From contig CM048854.1 of assembly GCA_026545225.1 (NCBI GenBank), forward strand, positions 31,882,230 to 31,946,229: a DNA stretch of 64,000 bases, written 5' to 3'. The position numbers and the translations under genes were made by a program. Numbering within the stretch: the stretch's first letter is position 1; every line of letters begins with the position of its first letter. Source of the stretch: Cornus controversa. Taxonomy: Eukaryota; Streptophyta; Magnoliopsida; Cornales; Cornaceae. Under the pieces are notes generated by a model that was given only the letters and a program-made list of their open reading frames with translations, searched no databases and was not told the DNA's origin. Shown here in pieces: positions 5,634-30,615 of the stretch.

Positions 5634-6416
5634 TGTTAGAAATAAAGAAAGAAAATTGTATTGAATTAACTAGTTATTATAAATAATATATAAAAGTCTA
5701 TTTATAGGCACATAATCTTGGAGGTTAAGTAAACTTAAGAGATAAGAAATACTAATCCTTGATTTAGGAAAATGTATAAGAAACCTATGCGCTTGAGGAA
5801 AAGATATATAATCTTACAATATATATAATAGAAAATATATAATCTAACAGTCCCACAAACTCAAATCTTGAATATATAAGAAACCTATGCGCTTGAGGAA
5901 AAGATATATAATCTTACAATATATATAATAGAAAATATATAATCTAACAGTCCCACAAACTCAAATCTTGAATGCAGTTCGCAAAAGTAATCTAGTGATA
6001 TTACCAACTGTAGCTGCAAACACATACAACAAAGCTGTAAAAGAGCAGCTCGGTAGACAAATGCAACTTATTAGATCGATGAAAAGACTGAAAACAACTC
6101 GTTGGAGCAAAAACTAATTTGAAAATCAGAAAAGAAGATCGTTGAAATCAATAATTTTGACACACAGATGCTATGGCTCGTGAAAACAATCTGGTAATGT
6201 TACCAACAGTGGCTATGAACACATATAAAGAAACTGCAAAAGAGCGAACTCGTTGGAACAACAATAAGACCGAAAGCTGCTGGTTAAAGTGAAATTTGAT
6301 TCGAAAATCAGAAAAGTGACTCGTTGAAATCAGCGACTTTGACACACAAATATTAATGGGAGCTGATGAATTGAACTAAAGCTGGACTGTCATATTTTTG
6401 TTTTTTTATTGTCTGC

Positions 6417-6765: not shown

Positions 6766-7716
6766 GTTTGGATTAGTAAATCTTTATATCAAATGAGTTG
6801 GTTCTTTTTTTACCAGATTCTCTAAGTTAACTACTCTCTAGATCATCGCAAGTTAATTAATGAATATCTTACCTAAGGCGCCGAGATCGTATTCTGAAAC
6901 ATCAATTTTTTTTTTTATAATAAAATTTTATTTACCAAAAAAAGTATCATGCGAATTGCAAAACTACGAAACTGAAACGGGATGAAAATTAAAACCTAAC
7001 GAGGCACTGGATTTACCTTGGTGGGTAGGCCTGGTCCAGATACCTGGGCTAGTGTAACCCACTGATCAGTAAGTGGGCTTGATAAAATAGAAAATGAGAA
7101 TTTAAACAAAAGCCCATTCAATCCATAGGTAGATCTTCAAAACAAATATATTTAGAAGGCAAACAATATAAATACTATGTGGTAGATACTGAAACAGAGC
7201 TTCAAAAGAGAGAGAAGAAGATGGAGTTGGCTTCGTAACGGCTAGTTTATAACTGATTTTCAGACGATTTTGGACTTGGACTATATATATTGGTCTGTAA
7301 CAGTGGGCCTCTCTATTGCCCACTTGTTTGACAGGCTTTTAAAGCCTAGACTCTCTTTGTTTGGGTCTCTCACCTGTCTTGGGTAAAGCCCAACTCTATA
7401 AATACTTGCACAACATATATTATACATTTGTTTAAAATTTTCAAATAAATAAAAATAAAAATAAAAACAACATAAAAATTAAGATAAATTACTCTACATC
7501 CCTTGAAGTTTGGCTTGATTATTCTCAAGTTAAAGTTTCTACAAAATTGCTTTGACACCACTTATCATGCTAACGATCTATTAAACAAAACCACATCTAA
7601 TATACAATTACAAAAATACAATCAAGTTATAATGTTTTTGTGTAAAAATAATCTCAAATTCTAATAATTTGATTGATATATATATATATATATATATATT
7701 CTTTATTAATGTCACC
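6766..7716. other. No recognisable gene
   Basis: A 'taaaattttatttacc' plus A-run near 6920-6945 resembles the 3' end of a plant LINE, but only tens of bases are present. The rest shows no exon. An (AT)n tract at 7677-7700 abuts the CACTA element. Confidence 0.45.
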
Positions 7717-7734
7717 CACTACAACATATTTATT

Positions 7735-7940
7735 TTTTTCCGGCTGTTTTTGACTGGCGGTTCCGGAAGTGCCAGAAATTTGAAGTTATTACCGACGGTT
7801 TTTAAAAACCGCCGATAATGATCAATAATTCTGGCGGTTTATATAGAAGTGCCAGAAATAGCGTTATATACCGGCACTTTTTAAGGAACCGCCAGAAATA
7901 TTGACTTATTACCGGCCGTTTTTAGAAACCGCCGGAAATG
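7735..7940. repeat. Left subterminal repeat array of the CACTA element
   Basis: At least eight occurrences of a core close to 'ctggcggttt' or 'accgccggaa', in alternating orientation, lie directly inside the left terminus. The matching array lies at 11705-11960. The motif clustering is seen directly; the role as transposase-binding sites is inferred from the family. Confidence 0.75.
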
Positions 7941-9658
7941 AATAATACCAAACTTATACTCTTAGCCCAAACTTATAATCTTAGCCCAGTCCAATGAAAC
8001 CAATAAAATGCATTACCAATCATTTTTAAAATAAAATGGACCAAGTCCAAGAGAATTAACATAGCTCAAACCTAAGCCCATGTTCTGAAAGCCCATCTAT
8101 ATATATTCTTTAACCACTCAATTACTCTCAACCCTAGCCACACAGCCCGCACTCCTCTCTCTGCATCGTAAGTCCCTACTCACGACTGGCGATCTGTATT
8201 TTGTGTTTGCTCTCTCTCTCTCGTGGCATGGGAGGACGGTGACGATGGCTTTGGCGAGATCGGAGCAGTAGCTTTTACGAGATCAGTGATTTTCTAGGTA
8301 TTTTTACTTTTTATAATTTTGTATGAAATTTCTTTTGATGAAAATTTAGTTTTAGACTGATATGTGCATTTTGCATATGCGTGTGTGTAATATGTGTATG
8401 ATAGATTTGTGCATGTGTGTTTTGTGTGTGTAATATCTATATCTCTTTACGAGTTTCGAGCCGAGCTCGAATACTTGAGGTTGGAGCTCGATTCGACTTC
8501 TGGATTAGGTGATTGATTAAGAAGACATCGATCGCTATATTGTAAGATTTAATATATACTCCGTAATTGCTACATTGTATTTTAACAGTCAAAATGGAAT
8601 ATGCTTCATCTTGTCTTGCTTATCTTACCTTTGTATTTGTACAACTGTTTCTAATATTCAACATGTACAGTACTATATCATCTTAAGCACTCATATTCAA
8701 AGTTTAATTCCTGAATTCTTAATTTTGTATAGTATATGATATCATTTTCAATTATTATTTTTTGTTTATATTCATTGTTCAATTGTGTATGTATGATAGA
8801 TAATCTACATATATAGAGGGAAAGAGGTCAGTTTGCTAGCAGTTTTGTACTCATTGCTGTTCAGTCCATGCAAGTATCATCTGTGCTCAGAAGCCTCACA
8901 GGAACCTGTCTTTGTCGGCTTAGGCTGATTTCTAGGTTTGTTGTTATACATTTCATGAACATAACCATCGCTGATTTGGCCAAAACTGAAATTTTCCTAG
9001 AAAGTTGTTAATATAATAACCCCATTTCGATCACAATGTATGTAAACAGAGAAATCCTTGTATAAAAAAATTGGTACAATTCTTCTGAGAGAGAGAGAGA
9101 GCTGGTAGGACTTTAGGAGCACTAGTGTAGTATGAATGCAAAGGAATTTGCAATCTCCTAAAATGTATTTGTATATATATATATAATGTATTTTTAGCCC
9201 TGATAATGTTATTTTCTTGTATTATTTTTGTTTTTCTTTTAGTTTTAATGCTTTTGATGATTGATGGGCGTGTCTCTGATGACCTTTTTTTAAGAGGTAG
9301 ATAGAAACAAGAAAGGTGTTGTACTATTGTTGTAAAGAATGGTTCATAGCAGATGTGTGATAGCTTAAAAATGTATACACTATTAACTTTAGGTTGTGAG
9401 ATGTAACCTTGGGTAGGTATAAATATATACATAATTTCATATAAGGAATGCGTTTGAATACAGAGGTAAGAAATTGTAATCTTTTCACTTCAGTGGAAAT
9501 ACTAGATTCTATCTATTCTCAGGTCTTCATTTTACTCTCATTCACAATTCCATTGAATTGTTGCTTCATCATAATTTATTAGACGCAGGTATTAAGATGC
9601 TACTAGAAGAACAACAAATTATATTATATAATTATCCCAAAACTTTATGATTTGAAAT

Positions 9659-9862
9659 TGTTGGACCTTGGTATCAATTTCTGGGCCAATTCTCCAACAG
9701 TTTTATCTTTTGGAGTAATTGGTAGTTTAACATGGTATCAGAGCCTTGGTTCTGGGAGGTCTTGGGTTCAAATCTTCATCTTAGCATTTCTAGGAATTTA
9801 ATATGCATTGTTGGGCTCATTCTCTAACCGTTTAAGCTTTAGAAGTAATTGATAGTTTAACA
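9659..9862 (+). mobile_element. TRIM (about 204 bp) with 5-bp target duplication
   Basis: Two short LTRs, 9659-9732 and 9809-9862, each start TGTTGG and end TAGTTTAACA. They agree closely over their last 50 bases. The first is followed at once by TGGTATCAGAGCC (9733-9745), the tRNA-Met primer site used by many plant LTR elements. The whole unit is bounded by GAAAT on both sides (9654-9658 and 9863-9867). Only about 76 bp separates the LTRs, so this is a very small terminal-repeat retrotransposon in miniature. It is non-coding and sits inside the CACTA element. Confidence 0.75.
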
Positions 9863-10213
9863 GAAATATTTTTCCAAGTAAAGAATAAGATTTAGATCAT
9901 TTATCCCATTCATTGGGGAACTGCTAATAATTAACACTGATGAAACCATTGGGGAAGCATGTGAAAAACAGTGAGGAGTGCATCAGCAACTTTATGAAGA
10001 TGCAGGAATCCAAATTTGAATTAATAAATGTATTTTAAACAACTCAACTACTTATATTTCTGGCTACGTTATCAAATGCAGTACTTATATTTCTGTGGAT
10101 GTTGCTTTGTTGAGGAATTTCATTAATTTGAAGAGTTAGCTTTTTGGGAATAAATGAAATGTTCAGAACAGCAATCTCTCAAGCCCAGTAATATGTGATG
10201 GCAATCTTTGCAG

Positions 10214-10503
10214 TTCTACTAGCAAGAAGCCTCTAAACTGCTTGTACAAATTGGGAATCTGCAGAATTCAAACAGGTAATTTCAAGTGGTACAAGTACCA
10301 TCATATCCAATTGTGCTCCCTTAAACCTTTTCTTCTACTTCTTTTATTTTTTAGCAATACCTAACTTTGAAAACCTTTGATTTAACAATGTTTTTTTTTA
10401 CAGGAATATGATGGGTGAAGCTCTGAGCACTTTGACTCTCAGAGAGCTCAAGAACCTGGAGGGTGGTTTAGAGCGAGGCATTAGCAGAATCCGATCAAAA
10501 AAA
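10214..10503 (+). pseudogene. AGAMOUS/SEEDSTICK-like MADS-box K-domain, two captured exons
   Basis: Exon a is 10214-10275, preceded by TTTGCAG and followed by GTAATT. It reads through Q-E-A-S-K-L...L-Q-N-S-N-R, with a TAG where the clade normally has Gln. Exon b is 10404-10503, preceded by TTTACAG. It encodes [17 protein letters not shown] and ends G-I-S-R-I-R-S-K-K. The lengths, 62 and 100 nt, are exactly those of the two K-box exons of AGAMOUS-clade genes, and the residues fit the SEEDSTICK/AGL11 subgroup best. In the parent gene this coiled-coil K-domain mediates MADS dimer and tetramer formation. No MADS DNA-binding domain or C-terminus is present. One extra G separates the canonical end of exon b from the GT of 10505. 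The Hip exon begins only about 11 bp later, so it is a captured, broken fragment. Confidence 0.85.
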
Positions 10504-10514
10504 GGTATTGAGTA

Positions 10515-10769
10515 GCAATTGAGCATCTCACGCAGGCAATTTTGCTCAACCCAACTTCAGCAATTATGTATGGAACCAGAGGTAGAGCTTGGTTTGAGGC
10601 TTATACTGTGCTTGTCAATCTTTTTTCTTCCTTTCTTTGCAATTTAAGATTTGTAGCTTATTTTGTTTATATCTAATGTTTATTTATACTTGATGTTTTT
10701 ACAGCTAGTGTGTATATCAAAATTAAGAAACTAAATGCTGCTATCCGAGATGCCAATGCAGCTTTAGAG
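10515..10769 (+). pseudogene. Hip (Hsc70-interacting protein) TPR region, two captured exons
   Basis: The first piece, 10515-10581, reads A-I-E-H-L-T-Q-A-I-L-L-N-P-T-S-A-I-M-Y-G and ends at a GTAGAG donor. The second, 10705-10769, follows TTTACAG and reads S-V-Y-I-K-I-K-K-L-N-A-A-I-R-D-A-N-A-A-L-E up to GTTATT. The codon split by the intron (G|CT, Ala) joins the two in frame as in the TPR region of plant Hip/FAM10 proteins. In intact genes these tetratricopeptide helices bind the Hsp70 ATPase domain. The Hip N-terminus, later TPRs and STI1-like tail are missing. The piece lies about 11 bp behind the MADS K-box exon and on the same strand, so the two could share a transcript. It is a captured fragment rather than a local gene. 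Confidence 0.8.
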
Positions 10770-11153
10770 GTTATTATCACTTTCCTTAATCTGCATAGAA
10801 GAGAAGTTGAAAGTTTATTTTCATTATTTATAGTTTAAATATGCTTATTGTGCATGCCAACAGAAGCATTTGCCAATATAATGTGTGCATTTGAAGGGAA
10901 GGGATTCCTAACAGAAGAATTGAGTTAGGAACCCCTTCCCTTCCCTCCCCTCTCTTATCCCTAAAAGTTTGAAAGAAAGAAAGGGATTAAAGATGTGAAG
11001 GTCTGAACTAAAGGGCTTTTAATTTTCCTTTTTGAGGCTTCAAATTTTTATTCTTGGGTTATGTTTATGTGTTTGTGAAGGGCTAGTCCGCATGCTCTCA
11101 TATGAGAGAACATTTTAGCTAAGCAATTGATCTGTGTGTGTGTTTTTTTGTAG

Positions 11154-11430
11154 ATATACCCAACATCAGTAAGAACAAGTAAGAACAACTGGTGTTGGAG
11201 TTGCAAGCTCGGTGGGAAGAATTAGATGAATGCTATGTCCTCTGGTGGCAGTAGGTCTGGTTCACGGGTGTCATCAAGCTGCAGCCATTGTTCTATTTGA
11301 GGTTGTTATCTTTGTTTCTGGAGTCTGTATACTGCTCTTCCCCTTAGAAACAAAGGGCCGTGAGTTGAGTGATACTGTATCTAGTAATACAAAAGAAGTC
11401 AATAATACATTTGTACCAATTGATCACTGA
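11154..11430 (+). pseudogene. NiaP-like MFS transporter, captured last exon
   Basis: After a T-rich acceptor (TTTTTTTGTAG, ending 11153) the sequence reads I-Y-P-T-S-V-R-T, has a small duplication of 'agtaagaaca', then V-G-V-A-S-S-V-G-R-I. After an in-frame TGA it continues M-L-C-P-L-V-A-V-G-L-V-H-G-C-H-Q and runs to a natural TGA at 11428-11430. This matches the last transmembrane helices and cytosolic tail of plant NiaP/SVOP-like major facilitator proteins (nicotinate or organic cation carriers): T-G-V-G-V-A-S-S-V-G-R-I is family-typical, as is the L-F-P-L-E-T-K-G-R-E-L ending. Only about 85 codons remain, so it cannot transport anything. Like the MADS and Hip pieces it is on the plus strand inside the CACTA element with its acceptor kept. 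Confidence 0.8.
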
Positions 11431-11704
11431 TTTTCCTTCAATCAATTGTTCATATTACTTGAACCCCACACTACTGAGCCAACTTACAGGGGCTGTTTAT
11501 TATCACATGTAGTATTTGTTGTTTGATATTTTTCATTTGAAGGATGCATTAAAAAGGATTAAATGTGCACACCCAGTTCTCACCCTCAAAACGACATAAA
11601 TATTGGTTGAGAATGAATTCATTTCTTTATTGTGGTCCAATTGCACTGATGTTGTGGGAAAGCAGTGAGGTGGGGGGAGGAAAGAGGCGAAAGAAAAAAA
11701 GAAA

Positions 11705-11960
11705 AAAAAAAAATTCTGGCGGTTTTTGTAAAACCTCCGGTAAATGGTTTGTAAAAATTAATCATTATCGGCGATTTATAATAAACTGTCGGATATTATC
11801 TGGTGGATAAAATCGCCGGAAATTACCGGCAGTTTAACAAAACTGCTGGTAATTCTCTACGCGCAGCACATTTTTTGGCAGATTTTTTAATCGCCGGTGA
11901 TATTTTTCCGGTGATTTTGAAGGTGTTTTCCGACAGTTTAAACCGTCGGTGATATAAAAA
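11705..11960. repeat. Right subterminal repeat array of the CACTA element
   Basis: Repeated, mutually inverted copies of cores such as 'tctggcggttt', 'atcgccggaaa' and 'accggcagttt' lead up to the terminal TTGTAGTG. The composition matches the left array at 7735-7940. Confidence 0.75.
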
Positions 11961-11972
11961 AATCTTGTAGTG

Positions 11973-12785
11973 ACACTAACACTTTTGTTATAAAAGGTAG
12001 TTATGACATTTTGATTTTTTTTATGTTGATTGATTTTAACGGAGTTGATTGTAAATTAATAGCATGGAGTACCCGAAGTAAAGTTTACCAAATCTTGGGA
12101 GAGATTGATTATCATATTTTAAAAACTTTAATTCAAGAATAATTAGACAAAACTTCATAAGAGATTAAAGTAGTTTATCCTTTAAATTAAGAACTCCACG
12201 ACACACTACACCGAAGGATAGAAAAGCACTGATCCAAACACTCATGCAACACGTACTGTTACTTTAAGAATACAATATATTAGATTGAGATGCAATGGAT
12301 TCTTTTAGGTAAATTGGAACAAGTTCTTTAAAAAACATGAACAACACAAGTGATTTGTTTGATCACTAAGACTGACCTCAACACGATGACCCTTATTTTT
12401 TAAAATGTGATGTGCCTGACCTTTATTTTACCAAAAAAAAAGTGTAGTAACAAACATTTCCTCAAACCACTTTCTGTGACGGCGTGACATGTTACATAAA
12501 TATTATTCAGTTTTTTCCCTTTTAACATTTCGAAAATACCCCTTGTTGGTTTCTTATATATATTTGCAATATTTAACATACTTTTTTTTATGGTAAGTGT
12601 GGGGGGAAAAATGAGATGTTACATGCACGTTTTCATTGAGATGAATAGGCCAGGAAGAGCCGAATTAGTTTATATATTATCAGATAAGCCCATCTACTTA
12701 AAAAAAAAAAATCATGCCAAAGGGGTTGTTTGGGAAAAAAAAATTTGATTGCTGATTTTGCACGAGAATAATGACAATATCATCA
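11973..12785. other. No recognisable gene
   Basis: AT-rich spacer between the CACTA element and the next MITE. No exon or element end was found. Confidence 0.5.
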
Positions 12786-14799: not shown

Positions 14800-17700
14800 C
14801 TGAATGTCCATTTCAGATAATAAGAGACTCAACAGCACCAAATACAACAATGTGTTTTATTTTTTCTTCGTTGGGTTAATCACACATGCGCCTCTCAATG
14901 TTACAATGAAAACAGGAGCGAGCCAGAAATTTACTTCAGAGGAAACATCCATTAATTAATAATAATATAATAAAAAATTTGGACAAAAAATAATAAAAAT
15001 ACAGAGTAGCAATAAAAGGTCTTTTACGAATTTTTCTGAATTTTAAAAATCATATTGGGCCAGTGAATTAGAAAAGAAGAGATCTTTTCGAATTTTGAAT
15101 TTTTTTTTAAAGGTATTTTCTGAATTTTTTAGGAGTTCAATAGGGACACTTTTATAATTATCAATTTTTTTTTTTTGTACAAAAAATAAAAAAAAAACAA
15201 ACTTTTGCACTGAGCTTCTCGTTCTGGGCTTTGGGCCTGCCTGCAGGCTTGTATTTTGGGCCTGTTCTTCGAGTAACCTATGGGTTTGAGACTCTGTTTT
15301 CATGTTGTAGAAATATCATTTTATCAATATACTTATTTACCTTTATTGAAAAAATAAATAAAATAAAAAAAACCCTACCCATTTCCTTCATTTGATTGTA
15401 AACTATAGGGAAAAAAAATGGAAACAATAAGTAATTAAAATTAACAGAACATAGTGAAATGTGAAAAATAATAATATTTATTTATTTCTTTTTGATGTTT
15501 TTGTCAGGCATGGAGTGAAGCAACCAAGGAATCCATGGTTTGATGGGCCCGAGTACATCACACAATGTCCTATTCCTGTGGGCACTAACTTCACTTATCA
15601 GATTATACTTTCTTCCGAAGAAGGAACAGTATGGTGGCATGCCCATAGTGACTGGACACGAGCCACCATCCATGGTGCCATTGTTGTATACCCTGCTGAG
15701 GGAACCACTTATCCATTTCCAGAGCCTGATGAACAACAAGAACTTGTATTTGGTATGCAATTTTTTCCATCACACATAATATTGTGCATATATATATATA
15801 TAGTAGCTTAGTCTTTGCCTGATGAAATATAAGGATTGAATTTTGATGTAGTTGTATCAAATTTAGTGGATTTGCAAAAGAAGCTTTCCTAATCTTTGAA
15901 AGATAAAATGCTGAGATGAGATTAATTAGAATGCTATTAAAATTATATGTGTATATATATATATGTGTGTGTGTGTTGGGTAGCTTAGCCCTTACCTGGT
16001 GAAATATAAGGATTGAATTTTGATATAATTGTATGAAATTTAGTGGATGCAAACCCTAATCTTTGAAAGATAAAATGCTGAGATGAGAGTAATTAGAATA
16101 CTATTGAAATTACATTGATTAAACATTCAATTAATCCACTGATTATTTTTATTGAATGTTTGGTATTAATATGAAAAAAAATCAAATACAATTGGGAAAG
16201 GATTGGATGAGGAAGGAAAAGAGTGACCCAATAAAGTCTGCAGTAATCATATATCAAAAAATATATTAGAATACTTTATATATGAAGACTCACTTTCATT
16301 TGTATATATATATATATATATATAGATATAGATATATATCTATGTGTTACTTATATTTTTTTGGGACTAATCACTCTCCCAATTGTCCCTGCAGAATCAT
16401 GGTACAAAGAAGATGTAATGACTCTGATGGACTATGCCCTTAAAAATGGTGGACTAACAAAATTATCTGACGCTTTTGCCATCAATGGTCAACCAGGAGA
16501 TTTTTATCCATGCTCTAATGGTATATATATATATATATATGTTTTTGTACAGTTCTCTAAATTTCTGAAAAAAAATAAAACTATTCTAAATTTGTTTACC
16601 ATTTTTGCATTGCAGAAACAACATTTCATATGCATGTTGATTATGGCAAAACTTATCTTCTTCGCCTAGTAAATGCTGCAATGAACCAAGACTTCTTCTT
16701 CGCCATCGCTAACCATAACCTGACAGTCGTTGGATGGGATGGATCTTACGTCAAACCTTTCATCATGGCCTGGCTTCTGATAACCCCAGGCCAAACCATG
16801 GATGTCCTTGTCACAGCAGACCAACCACTAGGAAAATATTACATGATTGCCAAACCCTATTTCGATGGACAAGCCGATGATTTCGACAAAACCATCACTT
16901 CAGCTGTTTTTGAGTACAGAGGCAATCTCAATGAATCAATTCCTTTTTACCCACTTGGTATTCCAGATTTCTATGATGTAAGTGCGTCGGCGCAGTTTTG
17001 GAATAAAACCAGGAGCTTAGCAAGTCCAGAGCACCCTGCAGATGTGCCTTTGACTATCAGTAATAGAATGTACATTACACTCTCCATTAACATGATGAAA
17101 TGCCCGAATGACTCGTGTAGTGGACCGGATGGGAATCGTCTTGCAGCAGGCTTGAACAACATTAGTTTCGCAAATCCATCCATAGATATACTACAAGCCT
17201 ACTATTGGTAATCAATCTTATTTCTATTACATTCCTTTTTTCATTCACAAATTTGTACTAATTTGTTATAGTTATTAATTGAAAACTATATATATAACTA
17301 GGATATGCATACTATGTTTGTGATTAATCCATCCATGATATACTACAAGCCTACTATTGGTAATTTTCATTCACAAACTTGTATTAATGTGTTGTAGTTA
17401 TTGAAAAATATATATATATAACTAGGATATGCATACTCTGTCTATGATCAATCCATCCATGGATATACTACAAGCATGCTATTTGTAATTAATCTTATTT
17501 CTATTACATTCATATGCTCATTCACAAACTTGTATTAATGTGTTGTACTTATTGAAAAGTATATCTATATATATAAGTAGGATATGCATACTATGTTAAT
17601 GATTAATCCATCCATGGATATGCTACAAGCATACTATTGGTAGTTAATCTTGTTTCTATTACATTCATTGTTTTCATTCACAGGCTTGTATTAATGTGTT

Positions 17701-19243
17701 GTAGTTATTCAAAAGTATATCTATATATGTAACTAGGATATGCATACTGTGTTTATGATTAATCCATCCATGGATATACTACAAGCATACTACTGGTACA
17801 TTCATATATTTCTATTAAATTCATTTTTTTTCATTCACAAACTTGAATTAATGTGTTGTAGTTACTGAAAACTATATATATATATTTATATATATATAAC
17901 TTGGATATGCATACAATGTTTATGATTAATGAATGTAATGATTTTTGGTTACATTAACAGGAACATGTCAGGGTACTTTGATACTAATTTCCCCAACAAG
18001 CCACCAAACCTTTTTAACTTCACATCCGACGATTTGTTGACGGACAATGTTACGTTTTCGGACCAAGGGACAAGGGTGAAGATGCTGAATTATAATGAAA
18101 CAGTGGAGATAACATTCCAAAGTACTAATGTGATGAACTCAGGAGAGAATCATCCAATACATATACATGGCTTTAGATTCTATGTCGTTGGGTTGGGAAG
18201 TGGAATTTTCAATAATTTCACTGATCCACTCACTTATAACCTCATTGATCCACCTGAAGCTAACACAGTTGCAATTCCGAAGGATGGTTGGGCAACAATT
18301 AGATTTTACGCCGATAATCCTGGTATGTACCTTTAACTTCAAAATTAAATTTGACCCTACACAAATTTGTCTATACTTTACCATAATATAGTATATTGCA
18401 TAGAATTGAGTCATGTTGAACCAAATAGACCTCAATTAGTACCAAATTAGAACAATTCATGACTTCTAAGACTTGTACATAGTTCTTAATCTGTCCATTG
18501 TTGATCACATTCATTATTTGTCTATACTTCGGCATAAAATATGGTATATTGCATAGAATTGAGTCGTGTTGAACCAAATAGACGTCAATTAGTACCAAAA
18601 AGACATGTCAATAGTTCTTAATTTGTCCATTGTTGATCACATTCATTATTTGTCTATACTTTAGCAAAATACAGTATTGCATACAATTGAGTCCATGGTG
18701 AACTAGATAGACCTCCATTAGTACCAAATTAGAACAATTCATGACTTCTAAGACTTGTACATAGTTCTCTGAGTCATGCGAAACCAGATAGGCCTCAATT
18801 AGTACCAAATTAGAACAATTCATGACTTCTAAGACTTGTACATAGTTCTTAATTTCTCCATTGTTGATCACATTCATTATTTGTCTATACTTTTGCATAA
18901 TATAGTATTGGAATTGAGTCCATGTTGAACCAGATAGACCTCAATTAGTACCAAATTAGAATAATTCATGACTTCTAAGACTTGTACATAGTTCTTTGTC
19001 CATTGTTGATCACATTTATTATCATTTATACTAAGTTCAATGATTTTTTTTTCTGCAGGTGTATGGTTTATGCACTGTCATTTCGACCGGCATATGAGTT
19101 GGGGTATGGATGCTGCATTTATAGTGAAAAGTGGTGGCACACCGGAGACGAGTGTCCTCAGCCCTCCTACATATTTGCCTTCTTGTAGTTCTGATTATTC
19201 TCTACTTGGCCACATGAAGTCTTTGGTGCTTAAAGAAAGTTAA
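14079..19243 (+). CDS. Laccase (secreted plant multicopper oxidase), seven exons
   Basis: Exons are 14079-14171, 14577-14728, 15508-15752, 16395-16520, 16616-17207, 17961-18322 and 19059-19243 (1755 nt, 584 aa). Every intron is GT-AG and the phases join cleanly. Laccases are p-diphenol:O2 oxidoreductases of the apoplast that couple phenol or monolignol oxidation to reduction of O2 to water. Residues 1-23 look like a signal peptide, with mature D-V-H-Y-Y-D-F. Three cupredoxin domains follow. Copper ligands are all present: H81-W-H83, H126-A-H128, H467-P-I-H470-I-H472, and H529-C530-H531...H535...M540. Several N-x-S/T sites are visible. The T1 axial position is Met (W-G-M), not the Leu of many lignin laccases, which fits the LAC14/15-like part of the family. 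The chain runs 18 residues past the usual terminal Cys (C566). The start is the first ATG in frame with the signal peptide. Introns 3, 5 and 6 contain tandem repeats. No defect was seen, so it is probably functional. Confidence 0.92.
14251..14299. repeat. (AT)n(AC)n microsatellite in laccase intron 1
   Basis: An uninterrupted AT tract passes into an AC tract within intron 1. A second compound (TC)n(TA)n tract lies at 14741-14798 in intron 2, twelve bases after the donor. Confidence 0.9.
15803..16115 (+). repeat. Two-unit tandem repeat in laccase intron 3
   Basis: A unit of about 174 bp beginning 'gtagcttagtctttgcctg' and including 'aatataaggattgaatttt' and 'aagataaaatgctgagatga' is present twice, at about 15803-15976 and 15977-16115, separated by an (AT)n(GT)n tract. 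A relative of the start of this unit survives at 39190-39230, next to the exon 3 remnant of the laccase pseudogene, so the motif predates the gene duplication. Confidence 0.75.
17165..17935 (+). repeat. Five-unit repeat duplicating the exon 5 donor inside intron 5
   Basis: The last bases of exon 5 and the first part of intron 5 ('aatccatccat-gatatacta', 'caagc-tactattggtaat', then 'aactaggatatgcatac') are repeated. GT positions equivalent to the real donor (17208) occur at 17360, 17485, 17640 and 17796, spaced 152, 125, 155 and 156 bp. The exonic part is copied too, so each unit offers a look-alike 5' splice site. In the real gene a TAA follows the donor codon directly (17209-17211), so use of any downstream copy would end translation at that TAA. 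Confidence 0.85.
18345..19040 (+). repeat. Tandem repeat array in laccase intron 6
   Basis: A unit of roughly 165 bp is repeated about five times, some units shortened. It contains 'tttgtctatactt', 'agaattgagtcatgttgaac', 'cctcaattagtaccaaatta', 'gacttctaagacttgtacat' and 'tccattgttgatcacattc'. It ends just before the acceptor at 19057-19058. Apparent minus-strand open frames are an effect of the repeat. Confidence 0.85.
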
Positions 19244-29732: not shown

Positions 29733-30615
29733 GGAGGAGTGTTAGCGGCAATCGTTCAAACAAATGTCTTTGCACAGTCGCTCCATTGATTGGTGAAAAT
29801 CAATCCTAAAAATTAAATGTTTTTCTGCAATAAATATCCTACTTTTTCATCAATTAATATACCCTTCCAATTCTAAAGTATTTACAATGGTGCCATCAAC
29901 AAACAAATAAAATTATAAACATAAAGTATTGAAATATTTTTATTAATATTCTTTTTATATTTTCTTGCTTTTAAATATTTTTAATAATCTGTATAATTAT
30001 TCAATTAACCATAATAATCTATATACTTTATGTTTATGTTTATAATTTTATTTTTATTAATATTTTTAATAATCTATATACTTATTCAATTAATCTATAT
30101 ACTTTATGTTTATAATTTTATTTTTATTAATATTTTTAATAATCTATATACTTATTCAATTAACCATAATTACAAAATTTTAATAAAAGAACATATTTTT
30201 AAAGTATTAAAATATTTTTATGAATATTTTTTTTATATTTTCCTGCTTTTAAATATTTTTAATAATCTATATACTTTATGTTTATAATTTTATTTTTATT
30301 AATATTTTTAATAATCTATATACTTATTCAATTGACCATAATTACAAAATTTTAAAAATTATATTGGAAATGATTATAATAAGTATATAGATTATTAAAA
30401 ATATTTAAAAGCAGGACAATATAAAAAAAATATTAATAGAAATATTTTTAATGCTTTATGTTTATAATTTTATTTGTTTATTGATGTCACTACTATAAAT
30501 ACTTTTGAAGAGTATATTGATTGATGAAAAAGTAGGACATTTATTGGAGGAAAGTATTTAATTTTTGGAATTAATTTCTACCAATCGATGGAGCGACTGT
30601 GCAAGAACACTCTTC
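29733..30615. mobile_element. Mutator-type MITE family 1, copy 3, with 9-bp duplication
   Basis: Ends GGAGGAGTGTTAGCG and ...CAAGAACACTCTTC are flanked by a perfect 9-bp repeat, TTAACTTAA (29724-29732 and 30616-30624). This settles the family as Mutator-type. The arms match copies 1 and 2. The middle has expanded by about four tandem units of roughly 85 bp containing 'taatctatatacttattcaa', making this the longest copy (883 bp). Confidence 0.85.

Follow-up and report, generated by a model that had tools for sequence, protein, structure and literature searches.

Between positions 7717 and 11972 of the window (the whole 64,000-nucleotide stretch of Cornus controversa DNA analyzed here, on contig C10) lies a CACTA transposon that carries host-gene DNA, i.e., a Pack-CACTA element. 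One of its CACTA terminal inverted repeats starts at 7717 (CACTACAACA) and the other finishes at 11972 (TCTTGTAGTG), with subterminal repeat arrays at the left and right, as an earlier note on this DNA had described. We searched the genome (772 Mb, one assembly) for matches to the element. Judged by these matches, it carries pieces of at least six recognized, unrelated host genes plus one probable seventh gene, and donor loci remain elsewhere in the genome (L037, L038, L057, L058, L059, and L060). The earlier note had proposed a multidonor element with exons of three genes and had suggested a search for parent genes and for copies sharing its ends; both were found. The multidonor reading is supported, and the K-box, Hip TPR, and NiaP-like pieces proved genuine, with related donor loci. 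Three donors proved too few, since introns of a protein-kinase gene and of a CCB2/CCB4 gene, the flank of an ankyrin gene, and a piece of the probable seventh gene had been missed. The parts are as follows (ORF, open reading frame; subfamily names A and B were coined in this analysis).

7717..11972, plus strand: whole Pack-CACTA element, 4,256 bp, bounded by its ends, flanks, and 3-bp duplication (ACC/ACA)
7717..7968, plus strand: left terminal repeat with its subterminal repeats, of the subfamily A type
7969..8589, plus strand: the family's own 5' region ("leader"), common to the transposase-bearing copy F7
8590..9333, plus strand: rest of the subfamily A part, common to copy F2 up to 9333
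9330..9464, plus strand: patch of a third CACTA subfamily, 135 bases
9461..10015, plus strand: protein-kinase gene, an exon's final bases plus the greater part of an intron (C2:93202039, L060)
10016..10078, minus strand: flank of an ankyrin-repeat gene, antisense (C5:42646726)
10079..10089, plus strand: filler, belonging to a 14-base repeat (copies at 10049-10062 and 10082-10095) of the ankyrin-derived piece
10090..10171, plus strand: piece between two CCB2/CCB4-matching ORFs, probable intron (C6:31318129)
10172..10189, plus strand: 18-base filler, unexplained
10190..10511, plus strand: MADS gene, K-box exons (to 10275; 10404-10504), intervening intron, and start of the next intron (C5:58860481)
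10514..10894, plus strand: Hip gene, two TPR exons (the first truncated and ending at 10581; the second 10705-10769), the intron between them, and the next intron
10893..10912, minus strand: inverted templated filler, copy of 10924-10943 (19 of 20 bases)
10917..11660, plus strand: NiaP-like transporter gene, final intron, final exon (11154-11430), and 3' region (C1:93984510)
11661..11972, plus strand: right subterminal repeats and terminal repeat

The interval from 7717 to 11972 is one complete CACTA insertion, because its flanks occur elsewhere as an uninterrupted repeat with 3 bases fewer at the join. The two flanks were joined (464-base query; join at base 236) and searched against the genome, and 35 of the 59 listed rows covered at least query bases 51 to 312, i.e., they spanned the join. 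Six join-spanning copies were aligned; one (L042) was out of register and was left out, and all five usable empty copies had 3 fewer bases near the join than the window. The alignment gap was placed 2 bases to the left of the join; this amounts to reading the left ACC as an additional copy of the right-hand ACA with one mutation. The host site is a repeat of about 450 bases with inverted ends (about 7485 to 7716 plus 11973 to 12180) that resembles a miniature inverted-repeat transposable element; the flanks match across the join because together they form this one repeat.

The left end of the element (query base 1 to 3 through 666 or beyond) was present at at least 33 other places with 88 to 95% identity, a lower bound from scoring the best 40 of 913 candidates. 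Target-site duplications were exact in five of the seven copies with both ends scored: F5 (GTG/GTG), F3 (TCT/TCT), and F2 (ATA/ATA) of subfamily A and L034 (TAA/TAA) and L035 (TAT/TAT) of subfamily B. A 1-base difference was seen in the window and in L036 of subfamily B (CAT/CGT); L033 was left out of this scoring, its left end being altered. Region 7717-7968 matched four of five A copies over its full length at 88 to 92% identity (F2, 79%), compared with 80 to 83% over shorter stretches for four B copies. The right end did not discriminate between the subfamilies, and the right part of subfamily B occurs elsewhere with its own CACTA ends. These alignments indicate that the element is a hybrid, with a left part from subfamily A and a right part, containing the Hip and NiaP-like pieces, from subfamily B.

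Two neighboring elements, or an assembly error, taken for one element would account for halves from two subfamilies and for an exact hybrid that is single-copy among the matches listed. We regard this as hardly credible, given that the flanks are one uninterrupted repeat elsewhere with a three-base difference at the join; for two adjacent elements, the joined-flank repeat copies rule it out. The suspicion that the termini might belong to different elements was likewise dispelled: both bound one insertion, though its halves come from two subfamilies.

The left 873 bases (7717-8589) were 91% identical to F7 (C6:29.25 Mb), which encodes a Transposase_21 protein downstream (E value, 1.5e-97). Another relative, F8, had a weak Transposase_24 match below the cut-off; the right ends of F7 and F8 were outside the stretch examined. 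Within the window element, tblastn with two pieces of the family transposase gave no match at E values of ≤10, and six long ORFs had no Pfam match, in agreement with the earlier view that no transposase lies between the termini. A leader-like part at 8100-8950 had been suggested as a source of transcription. Its first part (to 8589) is the family's own sequence, common to F7, which rules out a captured gene leader up to about 8590; 8590-8950 matches A copies.

Other copies of the family carry other host pieces. F5 (C1:45.94 Mb; L005 and L061; 2,858 bp) contains 308 bases (97.4% identity) from a different part of the kinase gene that is also represented in the window, which suggests that one gene was captured repeatedly. 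With both ends present, F3 (C3:40.67 Mb; L003 and L062) carries copper-ATPase exons and F2 (C7:56.60 Mb; L002 and L065) carries a RIO-kinase exon, both in sense orientation. Of nine oriented captures of recognized genes (Hip, NiaP-like, kinase, CCB, MADS, and ankyrin in the window; kinase, copper ATPase, and RIO in other copies), eight were sense to the element and the ankyrin piece was antisense, a post hoc observation rather than a test.

In the right half, the Hip piece (best PDB match, Hsc70-interacting protein; E value, 1.3e-9) differed from three sister copies at 3, 5, and 8 of 381 sites (0.8 to 2.1%). Its identity to four B copies was 97.6 to 99.2%, with the alignment to one of these spanning just 82 bases. 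The related Hip locus (L038; C1:81.326 Mb) differed at 37 of 126 noncoding sites (29.4%) and, on this alignment, is the donor gene or a paralogue of the donor. The transporter donor, which we take to be NiaP-like, is L059 on C1 and has several transporter exons. Its last exon matched Sugar_tr with an E value of 7.4e-5, falling slightly short of the curated cut-off, and a different exon at L059 matched at 9.2e-11. The captured piece differed from this donor at 42 of 718 sites (noncoding, 27 of 451; 6.0%) and from three sister copies at 2.3 to 3.7% of sites. The reading frame of exon 11154-11430 is broken by a 10-bp duplication that L033 and L035 also have but L034, L026, L027, and the donor gene do not; L024 has a deletion at this position. 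In L027 (C7:24.7 Mb), the transporter last exon is open to its stop codon. In the amplified subfamily B, Hip and NiaP-like DNA was already combined. The window lacks 577 to 578 bases that L034 and L035 contain between the two pieces, and the inverted filler at this deletion matched the following sequence at 19 of 20 bases, compared with no more than 14 in any of 60 shuffles.

The middle of the element consists of short patches from separate places. At its left edge, 9159-9333 also matches a locus at C6:40031245, a piece common to F2; one ORF tested at this locus had no Pfam match, and we treat it as a probable gene only. The third-subfamily patch (9330-9464) was found over all or nearly all of its length at at least 17 other places (91 to 98% identity), plus one partial match, and six of eight loci examined for this patch carried a CACTA left region. 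The kinase patch differed from C2:93202039 at 6 of 549 sites (1.1%); this donor matched Pkinase and similar kinase families in Pfam and is presumably CDC7-like. The captured kinase intron contains, at 9658-9862, a mini retroelement that is also present in the donor (L060), with two short repeats resembling long terminal repeats and ending in TTTAACA, the first followed by TGGTATCAGAGC; we assume that it belongs among elements like the terminal-repeat retrotransposons in miniature (TRIM-like). The ankyrin patch differed from C5:42646726 at 1 of 62 sites, the CCB patch from C6:31318129 at 4 of 82 sites (4.9%), and the MADS patch from C5:58860481 at 11 of 320 sites (noncoding, 4 of 158 [2.5%]; coding, 7 of 162). 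The K-box was recognized in the window (PF01486; E value, 4.1e-9); one further ORF at L037 had no NCBIfam match. The kinase, ankyrin, CCB, and MADS patches were found together nowhere but in the window among the matches listed. The same held for the fragments of the earlier note, which had asked whether they recur in the same order elsewhere.

This patchwork bears on the published Pack-CACTA model, in which nearby elements, here of subfamilies A and B, lose their inner ends and move jointly with the DNA between them. As set out in the consulted parts of the sources, the model predicts the observed joining of a left half from A to a right half from B and also one contiguous captured stretch (PMC8903248; PMC13317346). 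Instead of one stretch, the DNA between the halves is a series of short patches matching four separate places in the one genome searched (C2, C5, C6, and C5 again), and the element contains two templated fillers. Fusion of neighbors is accordingly an improbable origin for this copy.

The seams were read by eye from the alignments, and the chance of each overlap was estimated from 200,000 random joins. Microhomology of 4 to 6 bp was present at three of the five tested seams: 4 bases from A to the third subfamily (chance, 0.024), 4 bases from the third subfamily to kinase (0.024), and 6 bases from ankyrin to CCB (0.003), the last being preceded by a duplicate of 14 ankyrin-derived bases. Two fillers were templated, one of them inverted. 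Templated insertions are an expected trace of a polymerase that changes templates during repair. The introns are kept, and the captured sequence thus came from DNA; retrocopied exons are ruled out on the same ground.

The divergences from the donors differ, and for this reason they suggest three ages: Hip oldest, NiaP-like younger, and the kinase, ankyrin, CCB, and MADS patches youngest, as would be the union of A and B. We think it probable that gap repair with serial template switching built this nonautonomous element in at least three rounds. Subfamily B would have taken up the Hip exons with their introns and later the NiaP-like last exon, after which copies spread. In the most recent round, repair of a break or excision gap would have begun synthesis on a subfamily A left half; passed through the third CACTA subfamily, the kinase intron, the ankyrin-gene flank, the CCB-gene intron, and the MADS gene; and ended on the Hip and NiaP-like right half of a B copy. 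The hybrid may then have inserted here as a unit or may have been rebuilt inside an element already present; relatives such as the C6:29.25-Mb copy presumably supplied the transposase that moved it. The sequence comparisons show the ends, the duplication, the donors and their order, the divergences, the microhomology, and the templated fillers, whereas we infer the single repair burst, the enzyme, and any transcription. In the portions of the sources consulted, the suggestion of replication error in excision-break repair is cited for maize Ds (PMC3260210), and template switching is proposed for animal Pack-TIRs (PMC8277862).

A possible but less likely course is stepwise gain, with every patch from its own repair event across many rounds of transposition and no single burst. 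Hip and NiaP-like clearly entered in earlier rounds (29.4% and 6.0% noncoding divergence), and the piece up to 9333 is common to F2 and the window, as this course would have it. Against it, the divergences of kinase, ankyrin, MADS, and the Hip sisters are all about 1 to 2.5%, and no copy with a partial kinase-ankyrin-CCB-MADS string was seen among the matches listed.

Several observations also count against serial template switching in a single last burst. The kinase/ankyrin seam has no overlap (chance, 1.0); an 8-base overlap reported by BLAST at 10016-10023 was a mismatched extension, and this seam is blunt. The MADS/Hip overlap is at most 1 base (chance, 0.47), the CCB/MADS seam, outside the five tested, holds the unexplained 18-base filler, and the seam positions and overlaps depend on reading by eye. 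The 3-bp duplication (ACC/ACA) is imperfect, and the genome searches covered the matches listed for one assembly. One burst is not proved: the CCB patch diverges by 4.9% (82 bp only), the A half by 4.6 to 6.6% from its fetched relatives, and the NiaP-like part by 2.3 to 3.7% from its sisters. The inverted filler at the Hip/NiaP deletion may be a separate, later event.

The earlier note had held that splice sites were kept. GT and AG are present at 10275/10404, 10581/10705, and 10769/11154, and the native donor site of the K-box exon is retained after 10504; the first Hip exon, cut at 10514, has lost its own acceptor. Without splicing, a stop codon at 10513-10515 interrupts the reading frame across the MADS/Hip seam. 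Splicing from 10504 to 10705 and then to 11154 would give one predicted frame of 77 codons from the first K-box ATG (32 K-box, 22 Hip TPR, and 23 shifted transporter residues).

These splice sites and this single frame are what a working chimeric gene would show, its K-box, TPR, and transporter exons being spliced and translated into a useful product, and the exons of soybean Tgm-Express1 are spliced according to the part of that report consulted (PMC1947982). Such a gene is nevertheless very unlikely here: the 10-bp duplication common to L033 and L035 shifts the transporter frame, frame agreement is a one-in-three matter that requires one extra A relative to the donor gene, the MADS piece is no better conserved at coding than at noncoding sites (7 of 162 versus 4 of 158 different), and the copy is inserted in a repeat. 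We give the function of the predicted fusion little weight. Equally far-fetched is the fuller proposal that one repair event, with templates on C2, C5, and C6 and from three CACTA subfamilies, made both a mobile element and an in-frame, spliced K-box/TPR fusion of 77 residues that would bind MADS partners or chaperones.

Elsewhere in the window, long-unit tandem repeats were found at 17238-17885 (124- and 156-base units), 5771-5973 (a 100-base unit twice; 99%), and 30033-30163 (a 70-base unit 1.9 times; 100%).

The window element is a Pack-CACTA of a known kind. The consulted portion of the Tgm-Express1 report describes a soybean CACTA element in which five unrelated host genes are represented by fragments that include introns and usable splice sites. 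That element lies within the intron of a gene, and its chimeric transcripts are shown, whereas the present element occupies a repeat, and donors, sister copies, and seams are resolved here (PMC1947982). The donor combination, suggested earlier to be new, is new only in that each such element has its own set, multidonor CACTA elements being described in the parts consulted of PMC1947982 and PMC8903248. Pack-CACTA and other Pack-TYPE elements of Arabidopsis, rice, and maize share CACTACAA ends, genic DNA often from more than one locus, and two-element hybrids. Their proposed mechanism, as given in the consulted part of the source (PMC8903248), takes one stretch between two neighbors; the present element instead strings together patches of unlinked origin and shows microhomology and templated filler. 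Animal Pack-TIRs, for which the consulted part of the source gives gap-filling and FoSTeST models, share breakpoint microhomology and template-switching capture but have animal hosts, unlike this plant CACTA with at least four recent host patches in a chain (PMC8277862). Maize Ds2 and Ds-l4, in the source as far as consulted, are likewise nonautonomous with filler DNA and intron-containing gene fragments but belong to the hAT superfamily, not CACTA (PMC3260210). A literature search, mainly of titles and the beginnings of abstracts, found no description of such seams in a CACTA element, and we make no claim of absence.

The five closely examined family copies and subfamilies carry different host pieces (Hip, NiaP-like, MADS, CCB, kinase [two parts in two copies], RIO kinase, and copper ATPase). 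How cut-and-paste elements of plants capture genes is disputed between fusion of neighboring copies and template switching in repair. With seams at base level, identified donors, sister copies, and relative ages, these models become distinguishable, and the value of this element lies in its seams, which bear on the competing models of gene capture.

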